A stretch of DNA of 46,781 nt, from IMG/VR virus record IMGVR_UViG_3300028394_000115, positions 1 through 46,781 of that record. The stretch is one strand, 5' to 3'. The notes beneath the pieces were generated by a model. The model was not told the DNA's origin. It ran no database searches and saw nothing but the letters and a program-made list of their open reading frames with translations. The first letter of the stretch is position 1; every line of letters starts with the position of its first letter. Shown in pieces: positions 372 through 21,729 of the stretch. The DNA is from a virus. Made by a program: the position numbers and the translations under genes.

Positions 372-1085
372 CTAACTTACTGTATAGACGGTTTCTTTGT
401 GGTGCTTAAGTTTTACTGTAGGGTCTACGTATATTTTATATCCATTTTTCCTAGCATTCATACACCAAGAGTAGTCCTCACCAACGATACTCCCATACCC
501 GGGGGTATCCCAGGTTAAGTGCTCAATCATGAACCAAGGTCGATCCATATTCTCAAAAACTCCACTTTTCATAGTAACAAATCCAAATCCAACTCCAAAA
601 ACTTCCATTGGATCTATTTTATTAAAAAAAGAAAACTCATGCATATTAATAGTAGGCTTCTCTATCCCACGAGCATAGTACACTTGATTAAAAGAAGTAG
701 CACAGACTGTACCTTCAGAGTTCAGGGCATAGACCCCAGATATAATATCTAGATCAGACTCATAAAGTTTTTTAAAATCTTCAATCTCCCATTCAATGTC
801 AGAGTCAATCCAAAAAATCTTGTCGTAAGTATACTGCTTAGATCCGACAACACTGTATTCCATATCTAGAGCATTAGCTTTATTAAAATCAGCATCTCTA
901 TCTAAAGCTGTAAACTCTCTAACTAGAGGAATAAAAGATCCAGGCTTAGTTAAAAACTTATAAGTCAATCCTAAAGACTCTAACCAACCAACAGTCTTTA
1001 GTAAACTTTTAACGTAAGAGGCGTGCATCTGTCTTCCAGGAGTTGCAATCAAAACGTTGTAGTGCTTCATTATATCTTTACTCAT
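372..1085 (-). CDS. GT-A type glycosyltransferase
   Basis: This is a likely nucleotide-sugar-dependent glycosyltransferase. From the chosen start the protein has about 237 residues. An N-terminal beta strand (YNVLIATPG) is followed by a DxD-type metal and nucleotide-sugar motif, FWIDSDIEW (D94 and D96). Near the C-terminus a GEDYSWC segment (likely catalytic acid/base region) precedes a paired His (KHH), matching the end of the second GT at 18237-18977. I chose ATG at 1085 because it overlaps the upstream stop (ATGAGTAA) and has a GAGGG-like ribosome site. ATG codons at 1097 and 1070 are alternatives. Family assignment is secure at fold level only; sugar and acceptor are unknown. Confidence 0.8.
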   Translation of the reverse strand: MSKDIMKHYNVLIATPGRQMHASYVKSLLKTVGWLESLGLTYKFLTKPGSFIPLVREFTALDRDADFNKANALDMEYSVVGSKQYTYDKIFWIDSDIEWEIEDFKKLYESDLDIISGVYALNSEGTVCATSFNQVYYARGIEKPTINMHEFSFFNKIDPMEVFGVGFGFVTMKSGVFENMDRPWFMIEHLTWDTPGYGSIVGEDYSWCMNARKNGYKIYVDPTVKLKHHKETVYTVS

Positions 1086-3107: not shown

Positions 3108-3178
3108 CACCGCCCCTAGGAGTCGAACCTAGGCCCACAGTTTTGGAGACTGCTGTGCTACCGTAACACTTGGGCGAT
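3108..3178 (-). tRNA. tRNA-Trp (anticodon CCA)
   Basis: A 71-base cloverleaf can be drawn by hand. The acceptor stem pairs ATCGCCC with GGGCGGT. The D-arm GTGT/GCAC encloses a loop containing GG. The anticodon stem GCAGT/ACTGT encloses loop CTCCAAA with anticodon CCA. The T-arm CTAGG/CCTAG encloses TTCGACT. The 3' CCA is not encoded, so the host CCA-adding enzyme would be needed. Its 5' end is one base from the 3' CCA of the tmRNA, so the two RNAs must be processed from one precursor. Confidence 0.93.
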
Positions 3179-3179
3179 T

Positions 3180-3523
3180 TGGTGGAGATGCGGGGAATTG
3201 AACCCCGGTCCAGTTATGGATTCATTGTTCTTCTACAAGCTTAGGCAGTTTGAATATAAATAGTGTTTGACCTGCCAGACCACTATATTTTCACTTTTCC
3301 AGGCAAGTGATTTAGCCCTGTTGCTTTGGTGTCCTATTTATTTAAAACCTAGCTGCCCACTTAGGACTGGTGCTTTGCTAGGGGCCTTAGCGACATAACT
3401 AGGTTACGCTGCTAGTGCGAATGCAGATTGTTCAGCATTTATTTTGTTTAGCGGTTTTACGAGACTCCGCCATCTCGGCTTGCTTCACCAACTTCAGAAT
3501 AACTGTCGAAACCAGTCATCCCC
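3180..3523 (-). ncRNA. ssrA: Transfer-messenger RNA (tmRNA)
   Basis: This RNA rescues stalled ribosomes and tags the unfinished protein for proteolysis. The 5' end GGGGATGACTGGTTTCGACA is a hallmark of tmRNA, and GGGGATG pairs with CATCTCC at the 3' end. The T-arm GGACCGGGGTTCAATTCCCC is followed by an encoded ACCA. The tag frame ends NAEQSAFALAA then TAA (stop at 3404-3406, leftward). The resume codon is uncertain; GTA or a nearby codon after GGAGTCTC is possible, giving a tag of up to about 18 residues. Length is 344 bases, normal for a one-piece tmRNA. It lies just downstream of an HNH gene on the same strand. Confidence 0.95.
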
Positions 3524-4786: not shown

Positions 4787-5053
4787 TTAGAGCTCAGATA
4801 CCTTCTTGTTCTTAGATACTTCTGCTTCAGCAGAAGATGCAAATGCAGTGTTGATCTCTTCTTCATCAAGAACGCCATCTACGACGTAGGCACGAGCCAA
4901 CGATTCAGCAACTTCCATAATTCCAACAAAAGCGGCGATTAGGCCAGACTGCCACAGCTCGACACCGCCAATAGAACCAGCGGCTAGAACAGCACTGACC
5001 TTAAGAATTACAAGAGCAATGGTTCTCTTGAGGATTGTTTTTGCAATTTCCAT
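4787..5053 (-). CDS. Small membrane protein, holin candidate
   Basis: This 88-residue protein has two hydrophobic segments (about residues 9-28, ALVILKVSAVLAAGSIGG, and 33-52, WQSGLIAAFVGIMEVAESLA) and an acidic, charged C-terminal tail (DGVLDEEEINTAF then Lys/Glu-rich). The layout of short N-terminus, two helices and charged tail fits a small phage holin, but no lysin gene lies beside it, so holin is only one option. It is the last gene before the two-way terminator. Its leader shares a 13-base element with the leader of the glycosyltransferase at 18977, and its GGGAG ribosome site lies within a palindrome. Confidence 0.65.
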   Translation of the reverse strand: MEIAKTILKRTIALVILKVSAVLAAGSIGGVELWQSGLIAAFVGIMEVAESLARAYVVDGVLDEEEINTAFASSAEAEVSKNKKVSEL

Positions 5054-5115
5054 ATTTTCTCCCGGGAGACTAGTAGGGTTGATTGACCCTCTCTCCCAAG
5101 AGTTACTTCTATTTT
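5054..5115 (-). promoter_or_regulatory. Structured leader with shared 13-base element
   Basis: On the leftward strand, TAAAAT (near 5111) could be a -10 element. The leader then carries CTTGGGAGAGAGG (5100-5088), an AGGGT/ACCCT hairpin and TCTCCCGGGAGA just before the ATG. GGGAGA at 5096-5091 can pair with TCTCCC, while the same TCTCCC is complementary to the GGGAG ribosome site. Two exclusive pairings could therefore expose or hide the ribosome site. The same 13-mer occurs in the leader at 19053-19065. Confidence 0.45.
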
Positions 5116-5123
5116 ATCGCAAA

Positions 5124-5889: not shown

Positions 5890-7922
5890 TACTTCTGGTT
5901 TTCCGCAATCAACTTGATCTCACATGCGTCTGTGGTGCAGTATGCCTCACCGATTGCATCGATACCTAGACCCTGGTAGACACCATCAAACGAAATAGGG
6001 AACAACTTACCAGCTGCATCCTCATACTCTTCTTTAGTTATCCGGGTATATGGCATCTGAGGGTAGGTGAAGTTACCAGACGGCAAGAACGACACAGTCT
6101 TCAACTGACCGTCGTACATGTGAAGTACAGACTCAACGTGCTTGGCTTCTGTCTCAGGGTCAAACGAGATAGTTACAGATACAGAGTTATCTGACCAGTA
6201 ACGCTGAGCAGTTGCAGCAAGTGCCATCTTCTCAAAGATAGTTACATCGCGTTCTGCACGCTTTGCACCTGACTTGATTGGGAAGAATACTACTGAAGTA
6301 GTCTCTGGTGATTCAGAGGCTGGCTCAATCTTGTAGTTAGCCATTTTGAATAGAGGTAACATTGGGTCATTATTTCCAAAGCGAATAGCACGCATGAAGT
6401 ACTCACCACCTGGAGTCCAGTGAACGCCAGGTGACTCACCAGCAAGAATCGACACAGTACCCGATGGCTTGACCGTTGTGGTCTTGATTGACTCACGGAT
6501 ACCTAGCCACTCCGAGTATGTAACGTCATACTTCTTGACAACTGAGTAGCCCTCGTCCATCCAAGTACGGAGAGCGGGGATACCGTTGTTATCTGCAAAG
6601 TTAGCAATACCAGACATTGAAGTTCCAATACGACGGTTTCTCTGCATGATTGCATTTGTCTCTTCCCAGTGGGTAGGGAGAAGAGTCACGGTCTTTGCGT
6701 AGAGGTAAGCAAACTTCAAAGTACGAAGATAGTCTTCCTTGCTTTCGTGACGGTTTAGGTAAGTCTCAACAAGAGTACACATTTCGTAGCTCTCCAAAGA
6801 CTGCTCTGCACAAGGGTTGTATCCCATGATTCGGTGGTCCTTGTTATTGATTGGGTCGCCAAGACGACCATAAGCCTTTGACACGTCTTCCCAGATAACT
6901 CCAGGTTCACCGTTAAGGATGATTCCATCAATAATCTTTGAGAAGTCAGTGCCAACGTTTACCATGACTGAGTTGTTCGACATCCAACCCCACCCTGGGA
7001 TCTCTGGGTCATATGAGTTGCGCTCAGGAAACTTATCAACATTCTTGAGGTTTAAGAAGTTGTCATCGTCAATACGGCCAATCAAAAGCTCAGCCGAACG
7101 ACGGACGTTTCCAGAGACAACACAACGACCGATCAGGTTACCAATGTCCGCAATATCAACAGTGGTAACTAGCTGACCCTTGCGTCCTAAAAAGATCTGA
7201 GAGATCTTGTTGTGAAGAGCAATCAGTGGTTCCGGCCCAGAAGCCGTCCCACCAAATGTTGCAATAGGTGCACCATAGGGACGAATCTGATCATAGTTGA
7301 AGTCCCAGCTAGGCTGGTCTGGCTTTAGGAACGAGTTAATAAGAGCAACCGTTGACTCCTGCCAACCCTCGCGGGTGTCTGGGATTACGTACTCCTGAGG
7401 CTGACCTGGCGTATAGATCTCAAAGTTTTTGTCAGCACCCTTGTCATCAAAGCCAACACCGACGCCGAGCATCGATGCTTCCATAAGGAACGCAAACGGC
7501 TTACCCGGGTTTGCCTTGGTCATCTCCAAAGTAGACACAAAAGCACAGTTCTGCAGAGCAGCCGAGTTCTTCTGGACGTTTACAATATTGGTTCCCATAA
7601 CCCAAAGGCCGCGACCTGGAGGTGACCATTTAAGGTTGAATAGAGAATCAAAAAATTCTTTAGCCGAGGCAGCAGCCTTAGCATCTGACCACGGCAAGCG
7701 GTTCTGCTTAGCGTGGTCTTTCTGGATCGAGTATGTACCATTAGTAACTCGTTCACAAACCTCCGACCAAGTCTCTTTAGTGCCATCTTCTTTTTTGCGG
7801 GAGTACGTACGCAAGAATGTAATTTCGCCTACAGAGTTGCCAGCGGCATCTTTGTAACCGAAAGGGGATTCTTTTTGCTTGTACTCCGCTACAAATTCTT
7901 CATTTAACTTAAACGAGAACAT
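5889..7922 (-). CDS. nrdJ: Class II (B12-dependent) ribonucleotide reductase, monomeric type
   Basis: Reduces ribonucleotides to deoxyribonucleotides using adenosylcobalamin, so needs no oxygen or second subunit. The 677 residues carry all five cysteines of the Lactobacillus leichmannii type enzyme at matching spacing: C126 (QNCAF), thiyl-radical C371 (NPCAEQS, with E373), C382 eleven residues later (MCTLVE), and a C-terminal shuttle pair C662/C667 (YCTTDAC). The family's PSGTVS loop is at 486-491. At 677 residues it is shorter than the bacterial enzyme of about 740. It is the first gene of a unit with NrdH and supplies dNTPs for phage replication. The host must make or import B12. Start ATG 7922 has only a weak ribosome site. 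Confidence 0.93.
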   Translation of the reverse strand: MFSFKLNEEFVAEYKQKESPFGYKDAAGNSVGEITFLRTYSRKKEDGTKETWSEVCERVTNGTYSIQKDHAKQNRLPWSDAKAAASAKEFFDSLFNLKWSPPGRGLWVMGTNIVNVQKNSAALQNCAFVSTLEMTKANPGKPFAFLMEASMLGVGVGFDDKGADKNFEIYTPGQPQEYVIPDTREGWQESTVALINSFLKPDQPSWDFNYDQIRPYGAPIATFGGTASGPEPLIALHNKISQIFLGRKGQLVTTVDIADIGNLIGRCVVSGNVRRSAELLIGRIDDDNFLNLKNVDKFPERNSYDPEIPGWGWMSNNSVMVNVGTDFSKIIDGIILNGEPGVIWEDVSKAYGRLGDPINNKDHRIMGYNPCAEQSLESYEMCTLVETYLNRHESKEDYLRTLKFAYLYAKTVTLLPTHWEETNAIMQRNRRIGTSMSGIANFADNNGIPALRTWMDEGYSVVKKYDVTYSEWLGIRESIKTTTVKPSGTVSILAGESPGVHWTPGGEYFMRAIRFGNNDPMLPLFKMANYKIEPASESPETTSVVFFPIKSGAKRAERDVTIFEKMALAATAQRYWSDNSVSVTISFDPETEAKHVESVLHMYDGQLKTVSFLPSGNFTYPQMPYTRITKEEYEDAAGKLFPISFDGVYQGLGIDAIGEAYCTTDACEIKLIAENQK

Positions 7923-7963
7923 CTGCGTATTCGCTTTCTATAGGGAGTTATTTATGTTTTACC

Positions 7964-8223: not shown

Positions 8224-8333
8224 CGTTAATCATCTCCAAAACTGTTTTAAGGTATATCAATCATACCAAACTTAGGTTTTCATAAATAGAGTAAAATTAG
8301 GGGTGAATCTCTCCCGTACAAAAGGACCAACAT
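8224..8333. promoter_or_regulatory. Divergent promoter region between DUF3039 gene and fibre operon
   Basis: Rightward: TAAAAT (8292-8297) is a plausible -10 for the structural operon, with AAAGGA seven bases before the ATG at 8334; the -35 is weak. Leftward: an extended -10, TGGTATGAT, occurs near 8250-8258 upstream of the TTG start at 8223. No coding frame is visible in this region. Confidence 0.45.
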
Positions 8334-8690
8334 ATGAGCTGTATTGCAGGAATATATAACATTACCTGTGACCAAGGTGCTACTCTCCAAAAGTCTATCA
8401 GTTGGACTGACTCTGCCAACAATCCATACAACCTAACTGGCTACTCAGCTAGAATGCAGGTTAGAGCAACAGCCGCATCTTCAACTGTATTACTAGAACT
8501 TACCACTGGAAATGGTAGAATTACCGTGGGATCAACAGAGTATAACGTTAATCTTTTGGTATCAGCTGCGACAACCGACGGATTGACTCCAGGCCTCTAC
8601 GTCTACGATCTTGAGATTGTATCTCCATCAGGCACAGTAGATCGAATTTTAGAAGGAAACTTTAAAGTAAAGATTGGTGTTACCCGATAG
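8334..8690 (+). CDS. Phage structural protein with BppU-like N-terminal fold (putative)
   Basis: A 118-residue protein of mostly beta structure. The opening, with DQGATLQKSISWTDS, then NPYNLTGYSARMQVRATAAS, then TPGLYVYDLEIVSPSG, and the end RILEGNFKV, matches a widespread phage protein type found beside fibre genes: an Ig-like baseplate or fibre-associated domain. It probably attaches or supports the receptor-binding proteins encoded next. Its stop codon directly abuts the ATG of the collagen-like gene, so translation is coupled. It is the first gene of the rightward structural operon. Confidence 0.7.
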   Translation: MSCIAGIYNITCDQGATLQKSISWTDSANNPYNLTGYSARMQVRATAASSTVLLELTTGNGRITVGSTEYNVNLLVSAATTDGLTPGLYVYDLEIVSPSGTVDRILEGNFKVKIGVTR

Positions 8691-17387: not shown

Positions 17388-17592
17388 CTATGGAGTATTT
17401 CAAGCTGGAAACTATCTTGTGTCCGTACCCGGAGTCACTATTTTCATTGCAGTATTTGCATATCAAATATATTTAGTAGCAAAGGTTCCTAATCTAAACC
17501 CACCAATGAGGATGCTTCTTGGATTTATGTTTTTAGGATTTAATGTTTTAGTATGGACATTATTAGGAGTTTGGCCAATATCTAGATGGTAG
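17380..17592 (+). CDS. Small two-helix membrane protein
   Basis: A 70-residue protein with two hydrophobic helices: about residues 14-33 (SVPGVTIFIAVFAYQIYLVA) and 45-65 (LLGFMFLGFNVLVWTLLGVW). It has a short loop with Lys and Pro between them and no signal peptide. It overlaps both neighbours, so it is translated with the acidic protein and the recombinase. Function is unknown; small paired-helix proteins in phages include holins and superinfection factors. Confidence 0.65.
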   Translation: MDSYGVFQAGNYLVSVPGVTIFIAVFAYQIYLVAKVPNLNPPMRMLLGFMFLGFNVLVWTLLGVWPISRW

Positions 17593-18245
17593 ACACCTAT
17601 GAGGAATTAGCTATTCTATACACCAGAGTCTCAACCCAGATTCAAGTAAATGATGGTGTATCTCTGGACGTTCAAGAACGCCAGCTTCTTAGTGCCGCAA
17701 ACCTGGCTGGATACGAAGACATAGAAATAGTCAGAGAAGAAGGGCGCTCAGGTAAGTCCATTTCGGGGCGCCCAGCGCTCTCAGACGCCTTAAAACGCCT
17801 CGATGAGGGAAAAGCCAAAGCACTTTTTGTAACCCGCCTAGATCGCCTTGCACGCTCTACAAAAGACTTTCTAAGCATTATTGATAGGGCAAATAACAAT
17901 GGTTGGCGTCTAGTGATGCTTGACCAGAATTTGGATACCTCTAGCTATCAGGGACGCTTTGTGGTCACGATTATGTCAGCCCTAGCCGAGATGGAGCGAG
18001 GAATCATTGCTGAGCGTCAGAAGGATGTTCACAAAGATAGGCGCAGTCGTGGAATCGTTTGGGGAGTCGATATGGGACCTAGGAACAAGACATCAGACGA
18101 AATTAAAGAGCGTATCCGCCACGAGCGTTCAATTGGTAAGTCCTATAGACTCATTGCAACTAATCTAAACGCAGATGGAATACCTACGCAAAATGGGGGT
18201 AAGTGGTACGCCACTACCGTAAAAAATATTTCAGACCTATTTTGA
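17586..18245 (+). CDS. Short serine recombinase
   Basis: A 219-residue member of the resolvase/invertase superfamily. The catalytic domain spans about residues 8-150: ILYTRVSTQIQ with R14 and nucleophile S16, then GRSGKSISGRPAL, FVTRLDRLARSTKDF and MSALAEMERGIIAERQ. Residues 170-215 (ERSIGKSYRLIATNLNADGI, then PTQNGGKWYATTVKNI) are the start of the recombinase DNA-binding domain of large serine integrases, but the protein ends there. It lacks the long C-terminal domain (zinc ribbon and coiled coil) of classic integrases. It could be an invertase, a resolvase or a truncated integrase. No attachment site was found by eye. Confidence 0.88.
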   Translation: MVDTYEELAILYTRVSTQIQVNDGVSLDVQERQLLSAANLAGYEDIEIVREEGRSGKSISGRPALSDALKRLDEGKAKALFVTRLDRLARSTKDFLSIIDRANNNGWRLVMLDQNLDTSSYQGRFVVTIMSALAEMERGIIAERQKDVHKDRRSRGIVWGVDMGPRNKTSDEIKERIRHERSIGKSYRLIATNLNADGIPTQNGGKWYATTVKNISDLF

Positions 18246-18977
18246 CGGTTTGTTGTTTAGCAAAAGAACTTCTGCAAAACTTCCAGAGAAAGCATAGTCA
18301 CCATGGTGAGCTGTGTTGACCCAAGGGGCAGCATAAACTTCTCCACCCATCTGCTTCCACTTCTCACAAAAATAGTAATCCTCGCCTAGAAGCTCCCCAT
18401 GCTCATTGAACTGCATATCAAAAAATTGAGTGATGTCTCGAACGATTGTTTGTCCATTTTTAGTGGTCACATCTTTGTACGTTTTACAAGACGGAGCCAT
18501 CTCTTCAAAAACTCGTCGACTGATATACATTAGACCAGTTCCAACCCCATCTACGGCTACAGGCTCATCAAGCTTGATGCCCACCCCCTGAGGAATGCTT
18601 CTTCCAATAAAGTAGCCAGAGTATTTAGCTAGATCCGTTTCACCAGCCAGCACAGCTTCGCGAACTAAGTTCCAGTTGATACTCTTTTTAGGGTATATTG
18701 CACCAATTACATCTTTACCAGAGTCAATCATGTCAAGAACAGCCAGAGGGTCAAATGAGGTATCTGCATCAACAAACAGAATACCGTCAGCCCCAGAGTC
18801 AAGCATCTCATGCACTAGAGAATCTCTAGCACGAGTAATGATGCTCTCGTTATAAACGATTGGGTACGAGACAGAATCGCCTCTAGAAGCTAGGGCATAA
18901 GAGAGAGGTAGAACGCTGTGCATGTAAGCACCTTTGCAGTTACCACCGTACATTGGAGTTGCGATTGCGATATGCAT
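18237..18977 (-). CDS. GT-A type glycosyltransferase, second copy
   Basis: A 246-residue putative glycosyltransferase. N-terminal MHIAIATPMYGG is followed by NESIITRARDSLVHEMLDSG and the metal motif LFVDADTSFDP (D70, D72). A GTGLMYISRRVFEEM region follows, then LGEDYYFCEKWKQMGGEVYAAP and a paired His (TAHHGDY). The order DxD, GED-Y, HH is the same as in the protein at 372-1085, so they are related members of one family. It overlaps the recombinase end by nine bases (tail to tail) and is preceded by a structured leader. AAGGA is six bases before the ATG at 18977. Confidence 0.85.
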   Translation of the reverse strand: MHIAIATPMYGGNCKGAYMHSVLPLSYALASRGDSVSYPIVYNESIITRARDSLVHEMLDSGADGILFVDADTSFDPLAVLDMIDSGKDVIGAIYPKKSINWNLVREAVLAGETDLAKYSGYFIGRSIPQGVGIKLDEPVAVDGVGTGLMYISRRVFEEMAPSCKTYKDVTTKNGQTIVRDITQFFDMQFNEHGELLGEDYYFCEKWKQMGGEVYAAPWVNTAHHGDYAFSGSFAEVLLLNNKPSK

Positions 18978-19086
18978 ATATTTCCTTACTGAAGTTGGGC
19001 GGGGGGAAAACTAACCAGAGAGGTGAGTTGTTTTCAACCCCCGCCCGTTGTGCCTCTCTCCCAAGGAGCACATCTACTATCCTACA
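18978..19086 (-). promoter_or_regulatory. Leader with candidate pseudoknot and promoter for the glycosyltransferase
   Basis: Leftward, TAGGAT (19084-19079) directly after the primase stop is a -10 candidate. The leader RNA then holds AGAGAGG (19059-19053), GGGCGGGGG (19046-19038), CCUCUCU (19023-19017) and CCCCCGCCC (19005-18997). Stem 1 pairs the first with the third, and stem 2 the second with the fourth, so the stems interleave as in an H-type pseudoknot or act as alternatives. A GUUG/CAAC mini-hairpin sits inside. The last strand is about 15 bases before the ribosome site. The 13-mer CTTGGGAGAGAGG is shared with the leader at 5088-5100. Stem 2 alone could also act as the primase terminator. 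Confidence 0.5.
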
Positions 19087-21729
19087 CTAAACAACCAAGC
19101 TAATGGTTCCCCAGTCAACACCGCCACCATTAGATACAAGACGAGGAATCAGAACTCGGTTTTTAACTTCAGCACGAGATCCCTGTCCAGTAATCTGGAT
19201 ACCACGGTCAGCAAGCTTTCTGTGGAACGTTCCCATGTTCATAATGAAACGCTCTCCGCGCTCCTGTGACCACATTCTGTAGATCGTGTAGAGCTGCTTA
19301 ATACCTGTGCTAGATCCTTCAACTTCTTTAGTCTCTTCTTCTAGGAAGATACCAATACGATCTTCATTCTTGCGATAAATGTCTGCAGCTTCAGAGACAG
19401 CGGTACACCAACCCAAAGGATCACGAGCAGACGATCCTAGATATTTAATAGCGCCTTCGACAGCCCACGAAAGGACCGCAGGTAGTCCACCCTCTGGATC
19501 AAATAGATACGCTTTCAAATCTGGATCTGGTGATTCCGGGATATTGCTCCATGGCACAGGTCGAATACGACGCCACATAGCGTCATCGTTAATCTGCGGC
19601 CTGTGGTTAGTTGTAATCCATAGCTTAGCTTGAGCTTTAAATGTAAACGGCTTTTCTCCAGGAGAACGTGCCGAGATTTCAGACGAACCAGTAAGCTTCT
19701 TCACCGAGTTCTCTTTCATACGCTCAGAGTCTGGCAACTCATCCACCCAAACCATACGCTTACCGCGAAGCTCCGCCCAGTGGTACATGTCGGTACTACT
19801 GTTTGCGTTTCCAGTGTCAGCCAGGATACTGGAATCAAGAGGCCAAGCGTACTGGCTAGTCCCCATTGCCTTAACAATTGCTTCAACAAATGTGTTCTTA
19901 CCAGAACCTGGGGGACCGTAGACCAAGAACATAAGGTCTTGGTTATTTAGACCAGTCAGGGTATATCCTACCGCTCGCTGAATCCAGTCTTGCAGCTCTT
20001 TGTCACCGCCAGTGGCAAAATCGATGAACTGCTCCCAACGAACATTTCTCATTCCAGGGGTGTATGCAACAGGGGTACGCTTTGTGATGTGCAGGTCTGG
20101 ACGACCTCGTAGAAGTTCTCCAGTTTTTAGATTGATAACACCGTTAGCAACACCAAGCATGTACTCGTCACTATCCCAAGATTCAACGGGGACCACAACA
20201 CGCTCATCGGAGTTTGCACTCTCAACAGCTGAGTTCAAGCGAGAGTTTGACTTAGCTTGATTGGCCCACTTAAGAACTTCATTACGCTTGTCCTGATCGT
20301 CATAGTTACGAACCTCAGCAGCAATGATTGTAGGAATACGCTTAGCAAGCTCTTTCATACCAAGATCTTCGGCATCTGGACGCCAGTACTGACCATCCCA
20401 AATAAACCAACCAATACCAGGAGTGTATCTAACCGAAGACCCAAACGAGTCCACAATGCGTCGACCATTCCCAATATCAGATAGTGATCGCTTTCCAGGA
20501 GTACCACCCTCAGATTCTCTAATTGCATCCGGGTCCAACGGGACATCAACGTTTCCGCTACCGAATGCATCCGAGATAGATATTCCACTGTGAGCAGCAT
20601 CAGAAACAGCTGCACCAATAGTTCCAAGCATCAGTGGTGTAGAGTCACCCTCTTCTTCACCACGAAGAATAGATTTATCCTGAGCCTTAGCAGTCAGTAC
20701 AGCGCGAACTGTATTTAGAGTTTCTTGCTGATTCTGACGAGCCCAATCCTGAGCACCCGGCCAGATCATATCGCCTACAGGATTATTAGCAACAAAATCA
20801 ATCGCACGTCGGACGTGCATAAGTAGTCCACCCTGACCCTCAAGCTCGAGCGGAGGACGAACTTTTTCGTGGTTGAAGCGGATCATAAGTGTTTCCACTG
20901 CAAGCTTTCCAGCTTCGGAATCAACATTCATCTTGTTAGCAATTGCGCATGTTAGTTTGTAGATATCTACAGCACGGGAGCCCTCAGTAATTCCTTCTTC
21001 AAGAAACTTATTGATATCTACTTTTTCACCATCGGTGTTTAGATCTCCAAGCCATCCCCAGTCACCCTGTCCCAAAGATGTGCCACGACCGCGACTGCTT
21101 TTTTTACGCAAAGCATTTAAAAGTTCTTCTGGAGCATCTGCCATAGCAATCTCCCATGGAGCTCTACCCTCGGCCCAGTCGTACGTAACACCAGAACCGT
21201 GTCGGCTAGGTGCAACCATTACGTAACCATTGTGCTTAATATCGATACCAGGAAGCCCAGCTGCCTTTAGGTTTCCAACAAACTGCTCACCGTCTTCAAC
21301 CTTGAAATAGAGGTGACGCCCTCTAACTTCAGTTCCAAGATAGTTATATACACCAGTGTAGGCCTCTGGTGTTGCTGGCAAAGTGATGCCAAGCATCTCT
21401 TCAAACTTTTCAAAAGAATCAATACCGCCAGATCTAGGGTCAATATCTACAACAATAAAACCAGATCCCTGACAGTAAACACCGATGTTCGACTCGGGAT
21501 TGCGCTCCCACCAAGTAGCTACGGTTAGTGCATCATCTGTGGCACGCTCATTCCACCCACCGATTAGAGGGTGCTTACCTACATCTTTAGGCTCAGCATG
21601 CTTGTCATTACAAGTGCATCGACCACCATCGGTGATGCCAAAACATGGGAGTAGCTTCCAGCCATTTGCTGCATACCATGCAGCACCTTTGGCAAGTCTT
21701 TCCGTGTGCGTCATTTTGGGAGAGGACAT
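19087..21729 (-). CDS. Bifunctional primase-polymerase and SF3 helicase
   Basis: An 880-residue replication initiator-type protein. Residues about 10-210 are a prim-pol domain with VVDIDP (93-98, catalytic DxD), GRHLYF (137-142) and GIDIKHNGYVMVAPS (161-175). Residues about 500-880 hold the D5-type N-domain and an SF3 helicase: Walker A GPPGSGKN (605-612), Walker B VWVDEL (660-665), and sensor WITTNHRP (704-711). It primes and unwinds phage DNA. It starts at ATG 21729 behind AAAGG and a good divergent promoter, and ends just before a promoter for the glycosyltransferase. Family assignment is firm. Confidence 0.92.
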   Translation of the reverse strand: MSSPKMTHTERLAKGAAWYAANGWKLLPCFGITDGGRCTCNDKHAEPKDVGKHPLIGGWNERATDDALTVATWWERNPESNIGVYCQGSGFIVVDIDPRSGGIDSFEKFEEMLGITLPATPEAYTGVYNYLGTEVRGRHLYFKVEDGEQFVGNLKAAGLPGIDIKHNGYVMVAPSRHGSGVTYDWAEGRAPWEIAMADAPEELLNALRKKSSRGRGTSLGQGDWGWLGDLNTDGEKVDINKFLEEGITEGSRAVDIYKLTCAIANKMNVDSEAGKLAVETLMIRFNHEKVRPPLELEGQGGLLMHVRRAIDFVANNPVGDMIWPGAQDWARQNQQETLNTVRAVLTAKAQDKSILRGEEEGDSTPLMLGTIGAAVSDAAHSGISISDAFGSGNVDVPLDPDAIRESEGGTPGKRSLSDIGNGRRIVDSFGSSVRYTPGIGWFIWDGQYWRPDAEDLGMKELAKRIPTIIAAEVRNYDDQDKRNEVLKWANQAKSNSRLNSAVESANSDERVVVPVESWDSDEYMLGVANGVINLKTGELLRGRPDLHITKRTPVAYTPGMRNVRWEQFIDFATGGDKELQDWIQRAVGYTLTGLNNQDLMFLVYGPPGSGKNTFVEAIVKAMGTSQYAWPLDSSILADTGNANSSTDMYHWAELRGKRMVWVDELPDSERMKENSVKKLTGSSEISARSPGEKPFTFKAQAKLWITTNHRPQINDDAMWRRIRPVPWSNIPESPDPDLKAYLFDPEGGLPAVLSWAVEGAIKYLGSSARDPLGWCTAVSEAADIYRKNEDRIGIFLEEETKEVEGSSTGIKQLYTIYRMWSQERGERFIMNMGTFHRKLADRGIQITGQGSRAEVKNRVLIPRLVSNGGGVDWGTISLVV

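Follow-up and report, generated by a model that had tools for sequence, protein, structure and literature searches.

Between the primase-helicase gene and a glycosyltransferase-like (GT) gene of a virus recorded in IMG/VR lies a gap of 109 nt that, we are all but sure, holds a conserved, structured RNA element driven by a promoter. The record comprises 46,781 bases, and it is this whole stretch that we refer to here as 'the window'. Both flanking genes are read leftward, and so the relevant RNA is that of the minus strand. The element consists of a -10-like box, a 5' hairpin (H1) and a 3' hairpin (H2). Several phage messages carry, around their starts, sequence that the exposed loop of H1 fits, and the element is therefore probably a small RNA with a regulatory role, not a switch of the GT gene; that it is encoded by the phage to act in trans, the H1 loop pairing with phage translation starts, is the reading we favor, at somewhat better than even odds. 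The argument is carried by conservation, structure, promoter spacing, independence of GT, a second copy, and enriched complementarity, all read from the sequences. The locus is laid out as follows:

19087..21729, minus strand: primase/helicase gene of the prim-pol/D5 type, upstream of the element and its constant neighbor
19079..19084, minus strand: -10-like box TAGGAT, the putative promoter of the RNA, at near-constant distance from the H1 loop in relatives
19049..19072, minus strand: hairpin H1, stem GUGC../..GCAC, matched by covariance model R1 (built without the window) and backed by covariation
19056..19063, minus strand: conserved octaloop of H1, UGGGAGAG, the proposed seed, near-invariant in alignments
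18997..19046, minus strand: GC-rich hairpin H2, GGGCGGGGG/CCCCCGCCC with an inner GAAAAC/GUUUUC helix, predicted by folding, terminator-like without a U-tail here
18237..18977, minus strand: GT gene, PHROG_1574, downstream of the element and not an obligate partner

The nearest named relatives of the primase belong to Actinomycetia phage DSL-LC01, whose source is a metagenome assembly from Dishui Lake, and to Microbacterium phages.

The initial annotation described four interleaved arms in this gap. All four are present on the plus strand where it placed them: GGGCGGGGGG (18997-19006), AGAGAGG (19017-19023), CCCCCGCCC (19038-19046) and CCTCTCT (19053-19059). Their minus-strand order, AGAGAGG, GGGCGGGGG, CCUCUCU, CCCCCGCCC, makes an H-type pseudoknot topologically possible, and the nine-pair GC stem is real. 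The last arm had been put about 15 bases before the ribosome site; the C-rich arm in fact ends some 9-10 nt before AAGG. The letters of the proposed seven-pair AGAGAGG stem are there, but on the minus strand its arm overlaps the 3' arm of H1 (GUGC..UGGGAGAG..GCAC). Half of the AGAGAGG strand is loop and half is H1 stem, so that only a 5-bp loop–loop contact, GAGAG of the H1 loop with CUCUC, is compatible with both hairpins; CCUCUCU is carried in the loop of H2. Three things had escaped that description: the left part of the region forms a second hairpin, a -10 box (19084..19079) precedes H1, and the region as a whole is a conserved element. RNA of the plus strand folds with a z-score of -2.97, and 1 of 200 shuffles is equally stable; for the minus strand z is about -4.5.

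Read downstream of the primase, the -10-like box, H1 and H2 occur in the same order in 69 of 75 related loci. The six loci without the element (L135-L138, L141 and L157) have primases 58-60% identical to that of the window, and the Microbacterium phages A3Wally, Pumpernickel and Cece likewise have none behind their primase. A lack of conservation in relatives had been named at the outset as grounds for abandoning the stems; they are conserved, and the intergenic RNA is structured. What stays constant is a TANNNT -10 box, H1 with the loop YGGGAGAG, and an H2 that is GC-rich but free in sequence. The folding z averages about -5.1 in a set of 38 distinct sequences. The 5' arms of H2 seldom recur (the 38 have 35 different outer 8-mers), and the 3' arms are 98% paired with their own partner, a value inflated by the way hairpins are picked, versus 53% with a foreign one. 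In clade A4, for which the alignment of H1 and H2 is poor in gaps, 95% of cells pair; none of 500 shuffles reached the covariation score, and 10 of 500 reached the number of changes on both sides. For H1 across all clades (A1) the covariation score was again reached by 0 of 500 shuffles, but 232 of 500 had at least as many pairs with both partners changed. Model R1, comprising the -10 box and H1, matches the window at 19046-19086 (minus strand) with an E-value of 1e-6. RNAalifold returned no structure for a MAFFT alignment of H1 and H2, because stems of unequal length misalign; shuffles, arm-swapping and the clade alignment were used in its place.

The element has no counterpart in the collections searched. 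None of the Rfam 15 covariance models scored above its gathering threshold at the element (sub-threshold matches were chance miRNA hits only), and the Rfam matches in the window, tmRNA and tRNA, both lie elsewhere. There was no blastn match in a collection of phage DNA. A 16-mer scan of viral contigs recovered the locus in relatives plus four chance matches; among the matches listed in a 15-mer scan of bacterial genomes, a single Bacteroidales contig (L220) passed a filter for -10 box and hairpin, and is taken as chance. In one clade (L089-L093, L115, L139, L140, L145) H1 lacks the simple octaloop; a second GGGA segment is inserted there (CUUGGGAUCUAUUCGGGAGAA).

Conservation of the stems does not extend to the contact between them. 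Loop–loop complementarity is present in the window and in L142, L085, L149, L154, L086/L151 and L110, a few close relatives, and is at chance level in most others, and we rejected the pseudoknot as a general feature outside this subclade. A pseudoknot switch of GT, as first proposed, can point to the interleaved arms in the window and to UCUC-bearing H2 loops in L142, L085, L149 and L154, among others. A riboswitch or pseudoknot leader would be expected to stay with the gene it regulates and to covary in its pseudoknot pairing; this structure does neither. The element is kept in G006, G007 and DSL-LC01 (records of 121-129 kb), where GT is absent. In L083/L084 it is separated from GT by two genes, a kinase-like one and one for a convergent serine recombinase; here the element, whose H2 keeps a U-tail, remains with the primase, and the leader of the displaced GT has no H1. 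Among 88 other loci, comprising distant GT homologues and primase loci lacking the element, none has it save L003, the L090 locus under another label. The GT switch is thus largely refuted by the GT-less copies and the unconserved loop–loop contact, and hardly credible; the element follows the primase locus and is likely an autonomous unit. Serine recombinases converge on the primase–element locus in several phages (window 17586-18245, plus strand; L083 5232-5897; L120 5183-5845), and their position beside GT, or in its place, suggests a recombination-prone site.

In relatives, the fixed letters of TANNNT are conserved in 37/38 (T), 36/38 (A) and 37/38 (T) sequences, and no -35 signal is recognizable in these 38. 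The box keeps its spacing to H1, also at the second copy described below, as a putative promoter belonging to a trans-acting small RNA would. From the distance to the -10 box, the RNA is predicted to start at about 19072. H2 is strong everywhere. A U-tract follows it in L083, L085, L087, L120, L129 and L154, and U-tail terminators occur in several copies from which GT is absent or displaced; the tail is missing from the window (2 T in 8 nt) and from most GT-linked copies. A terminator scan of the window found no intrinsic terminator after the primase, nor is the canonical arrangement, stem then U-tract, seen there. The initial suggestion of a primase terminator finds a footing in several relatives in which a convergent recombinase comes next, and none in the window. 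That the element is simply a primase terminator or 3' untranslated region, with no function in trans, would suit the position of H2 directly after the primase and the A-tract/U-tract flanks in L120 and L129, which look bidirectional, but it leaves unexplained the conserved -10 box, the H1 loop, and a second copy before an unrelated gene; we regard it as very improbable. Upstream of the element in L085, L094, L098, L118 and L154, 8-bp inverted repeats of varying sequence (TTCTAnnn...nnnTAGAA), absent from the window, overlap the -10 box; they are possibly an operator or a primase terminator.

The -10 box and H1 occur a second time in the window, about 14 kb from the first copy and with identical -10 spacing, and most of the larger related contigs have a second copy 10-20 kb away:

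5081..5118, minus strand: copy 2 of the -10 box (TAAAAT) and H1 (ACUCU-UGGGAGAG-AGGGU), R1 E-value 0.0035
4787..5053, minus strand: gene for an 88-aa protein with two hydrophobic stretches, of which copy 2 is the 5' leader; its SD is GGGAGA, preceded by UCUCCC (5069-5064)

This putative membrane protein is 73-92% identical across relatives; its PHROG_26427 label is nuclease, and a Pfam search with it gave nothing significant. In its leader TTGGGAGAG is almost invariant, with the SD itself GGGAGA and a C/U-rich stretch before it. In the window (5064-5098, minus strand) and in alignment A5 of copy-2 leaders, either H1 forms and the SD is free, or a strand of H1 pairs with UCUCCCGGGAG and the SD is hidden. 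The second fold is predicted for nearly all of 24 copy-2 leaders, in which mean SD–H1 pairing is 0.62 versus 0.41 with shuffled linkers; covariation lends it no support. The two folds might act as a translational switch of the membrane protein. Cognate combinations of the small RNA and the copy-2 leader are predicted to pair weakly better than non-cognate ones (p 0.015, among related phages).

Two further explanations draw on this second copy. In the first, H1 is the 5' terminus of cis-acting leaders for the GT and membrane-protein transcripts, its SD-like polypurine loop stabilizing the mRNA or binding ribosomes or a protein, and H2 attenuates GT. Two different transcripts do have H1 at their predicted 5' end, equally far from the -10 box, GGGAG resembles an SD and equals that of the membrane-protein gene, and GT follows most copies of the first element. 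A leader of this kind would not, however, be kept where it has no gene to lead (GT absent, a convergent recombinase next), nor be missing from the displaced GT, and it does not predict the CUCCC sites in the reductase and tail leaders described below; we consider it unlikely. In the second explanation, the H1 loops and the GGGAGA SD bind an RNA-binding protein of phage or host (Csr/Rsm-like), which the short RNA titrates. CsrA targets have a layout like that of copy 2, in which a GGA-containing hairpin loop is combined with a GGGAGA SD. Such a sponge leaves the loop-complementary sites unexplained, and no gene for CsrA was found in 11 phage records, a search that bears on the phage side only; it is less probable again than the cis-acting leader.

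The trans-acting small RNA that we prefer would account for complementary sites elsewhere in the genome. The H1 loop of each phage was compared with the gene starts, as chosen automatically, of its own genes (81 gene families in 19 less-redundant contigs). The best family was PHROG_1084, the first gene of a tail operon on the opposite strand (p 5.9e-6, n=15), followed by ribonucleotide reductase (p 6.2e-5, n=11), a third, tail-like family (p 8.7e-4), the membrane protein of copy 2 (p 1.2e-3) and, fifth, the primase (p 2.9e-3). When the letters of the loop were permuted, none of 281 permutations equaled the observed value for the tail gene, reductase, membrane protein or primase; the family-wise p is only about 0.04, because 11 of the 281 gave some family an equally small p. 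The predicted target sites in the window are:

8308..8315, plus strand: leader of the PHROG_1084 tail-operon gene, UCUCUCCC, before the ATG at 8334
7943..7947, minus strand: leader of ribonucleotide reductase, CUCCC, before the ATG at 7922
21716..21724, minus strand: primase codons 2-5, CUCUCCCAA, a 9-bp complement of H1 UUGGGAGAG and the best site in this 2.7-kb gene

Of the 26 leaders of reductase and PHROG_1084 genes, 15 contain CUCCC, versus 19 of 1745 other genes; it is found in 0 of 5 reductase or tail leaders of phages without copy 1 (three phages only). The reductase leaders are near-identical in several phages, and so the p-values are inflated by common descent; those of PHROG_1084 tell more, since they retain CUCCC between differing flanks. 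Variants of the loop are matched by variants of the site: the GGGGAG loops of G006 and G008 face CUCCCC, with 8 bp in the reductase leader of G006 (UCGGGGAG/CUCCCCGA) and 8 bp in the tail leader of G008. The loop would thus offer a conserved and accessible seed complementary to the translation starts of its predicted targets, with the caveat of shared ancestry. A GTG-start gene with GCGTTCTCCC just before its SD, in G057 (4889, minus strand) and G008 (12295, minus strand), is another candidate target.

The primase site is more restricted, and absent in most lineages. A scan of gene starts with each phage's own loop placed that of the primase among the top two in 10 of 16 contigs, all with the UUGGGAGAG loop, and in 12 phages the best site within the primase gene is at +5 to +9. 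It varies between phages: L099, L102 and L110 have UCUCCCAAG (9 bp), and L094, L098 and L118 have CUCUCCCA, in another reading frame. The site uses rare codons (CCC, 9% of Pro; TCC, 7% of Ser; CTC, 7% of Leu), and randomization of synonymous codons gave p 0.004-0.03 in 9 of the 12 phages tested. Permutation of cognate and noncognate pairs over 17 clades gave a weak signal (p 0.10-0.19).

In the mechanism we propose, the element would be an autonomous small RNA of about 75 nt in the window, started near 19072 from a promoter that has a -10 box only and overlaps the primase stop codon. H1, at its 5' end, would display YGGGAGAG in the loop; H2, at its 3' end, would terminate or stabilize it, with read-through into GT where that gene follows without a U-tract. 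Acting in trans, the loop may then base-pair with sites of the CUCCC type where translation of phage mRNAs begins. These mRNAs would be those of ribonucleotide reductase, the first gene of the tail operon, the small membrane protein and, if the phage has the UUGGGAGAG loop, the primase, and the pairing would tune, most likely by repression, how they are translated. Production of the RNA, its pairing and the sign of its effect we infer from the features above. The missing U-tail of the window's H2 and the negative search for Hfq and CsrA genes in 11 phage records speak against this mechanism. More tentatively, and at somewhat less than even odds, the system could be an undescribed small-RNA regulon of lake phages, probably actinophages, in which one YGGGAGAG 5'-hairpin seed serves both as an autonomous RNA behind the primase and as the leader hairpin of a conserved membrane-protein mRNA. 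By pairing at translation starts it would coordinate the membrane protein and tail synthesis with DNA replication, in which primase and ribonucleotide reductase take part; in some phages a complement of the seed carried by H2 might mask it.

Trans-acting small RNAs with a hairpin-loop seed and a 3' terminator hairpin include the staphylococcal RsaE type, with C-rich seeds, and actinobacterial 6C RNA. The element shares with these its shortness, a promoter of its own (here putative), a loop seed facing translation starts and a terminator-like 3' hairpin; its seed, YGGGAGAG, is G/A-rich whereas theirs are C-rich, and there is no homology (Rfam negative). Stabilizers at the 5' end of mRNAs that contain polypurine or SD-like sequence are found in phage SP82 and in cryIIIA (STAB-SD). 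They resemble the element, from sequence alone, in combining a 5'-terminal hairpin with an SD-like polypurine tract; its purines differ in lying within the loop and in having complementary sites elsewhere. Regulatory RNAs of phages include P22 sar, P1 c4, lambda OOP and PreS, and VP882 VpdS; the phages reviewed are temperate, several of the RNAs act near phage mRNA translation starts, and several are linked to Hfq (PMC12197685). The element is, like these, phage-encoded and directed (as predicted here) at translation starts; unlike these RNAs, which belong to other hosts, it recurs across a diverse clade of aquatic phages, uses a seed hairpin in common with an mRNA leader, and is predicted to have several targets. 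Selected gene starts of cluster K mycobacteriophages bear SAS/ESAS, an SD-like motif (GGGATAGGAGCCC) that recurs with inverted repeats upstream of it, with 11-19 SAS sites per genome (PMC3203893). A repeated SD-like motif with inverted repeats at gene starts is common to both; the element differs in having mainly two copies, one of them promoter-linked with no constant gene downstream. Our literature searches found no description of the element. RNA-based regulation is poorly known in the large phages that infect the abundant, hard-to-culture bacteria of lakes. An RNA gene so widely conserved, for which specific targets are predicted, would offer a testable handle on the timing of replication, nucleotide supply and virion assembly, and a covariance model with which to annotate it.

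Two other features of the window were noted. A tmRNA gene (3108-3523, minus strand; Rfam 144.9 bits) is followed directly by a tRNA gene, and near the end of the window (372-500, minus strand) there is a weak second GT-like match, 30% identical over 43 residues, in a frame with one stop.
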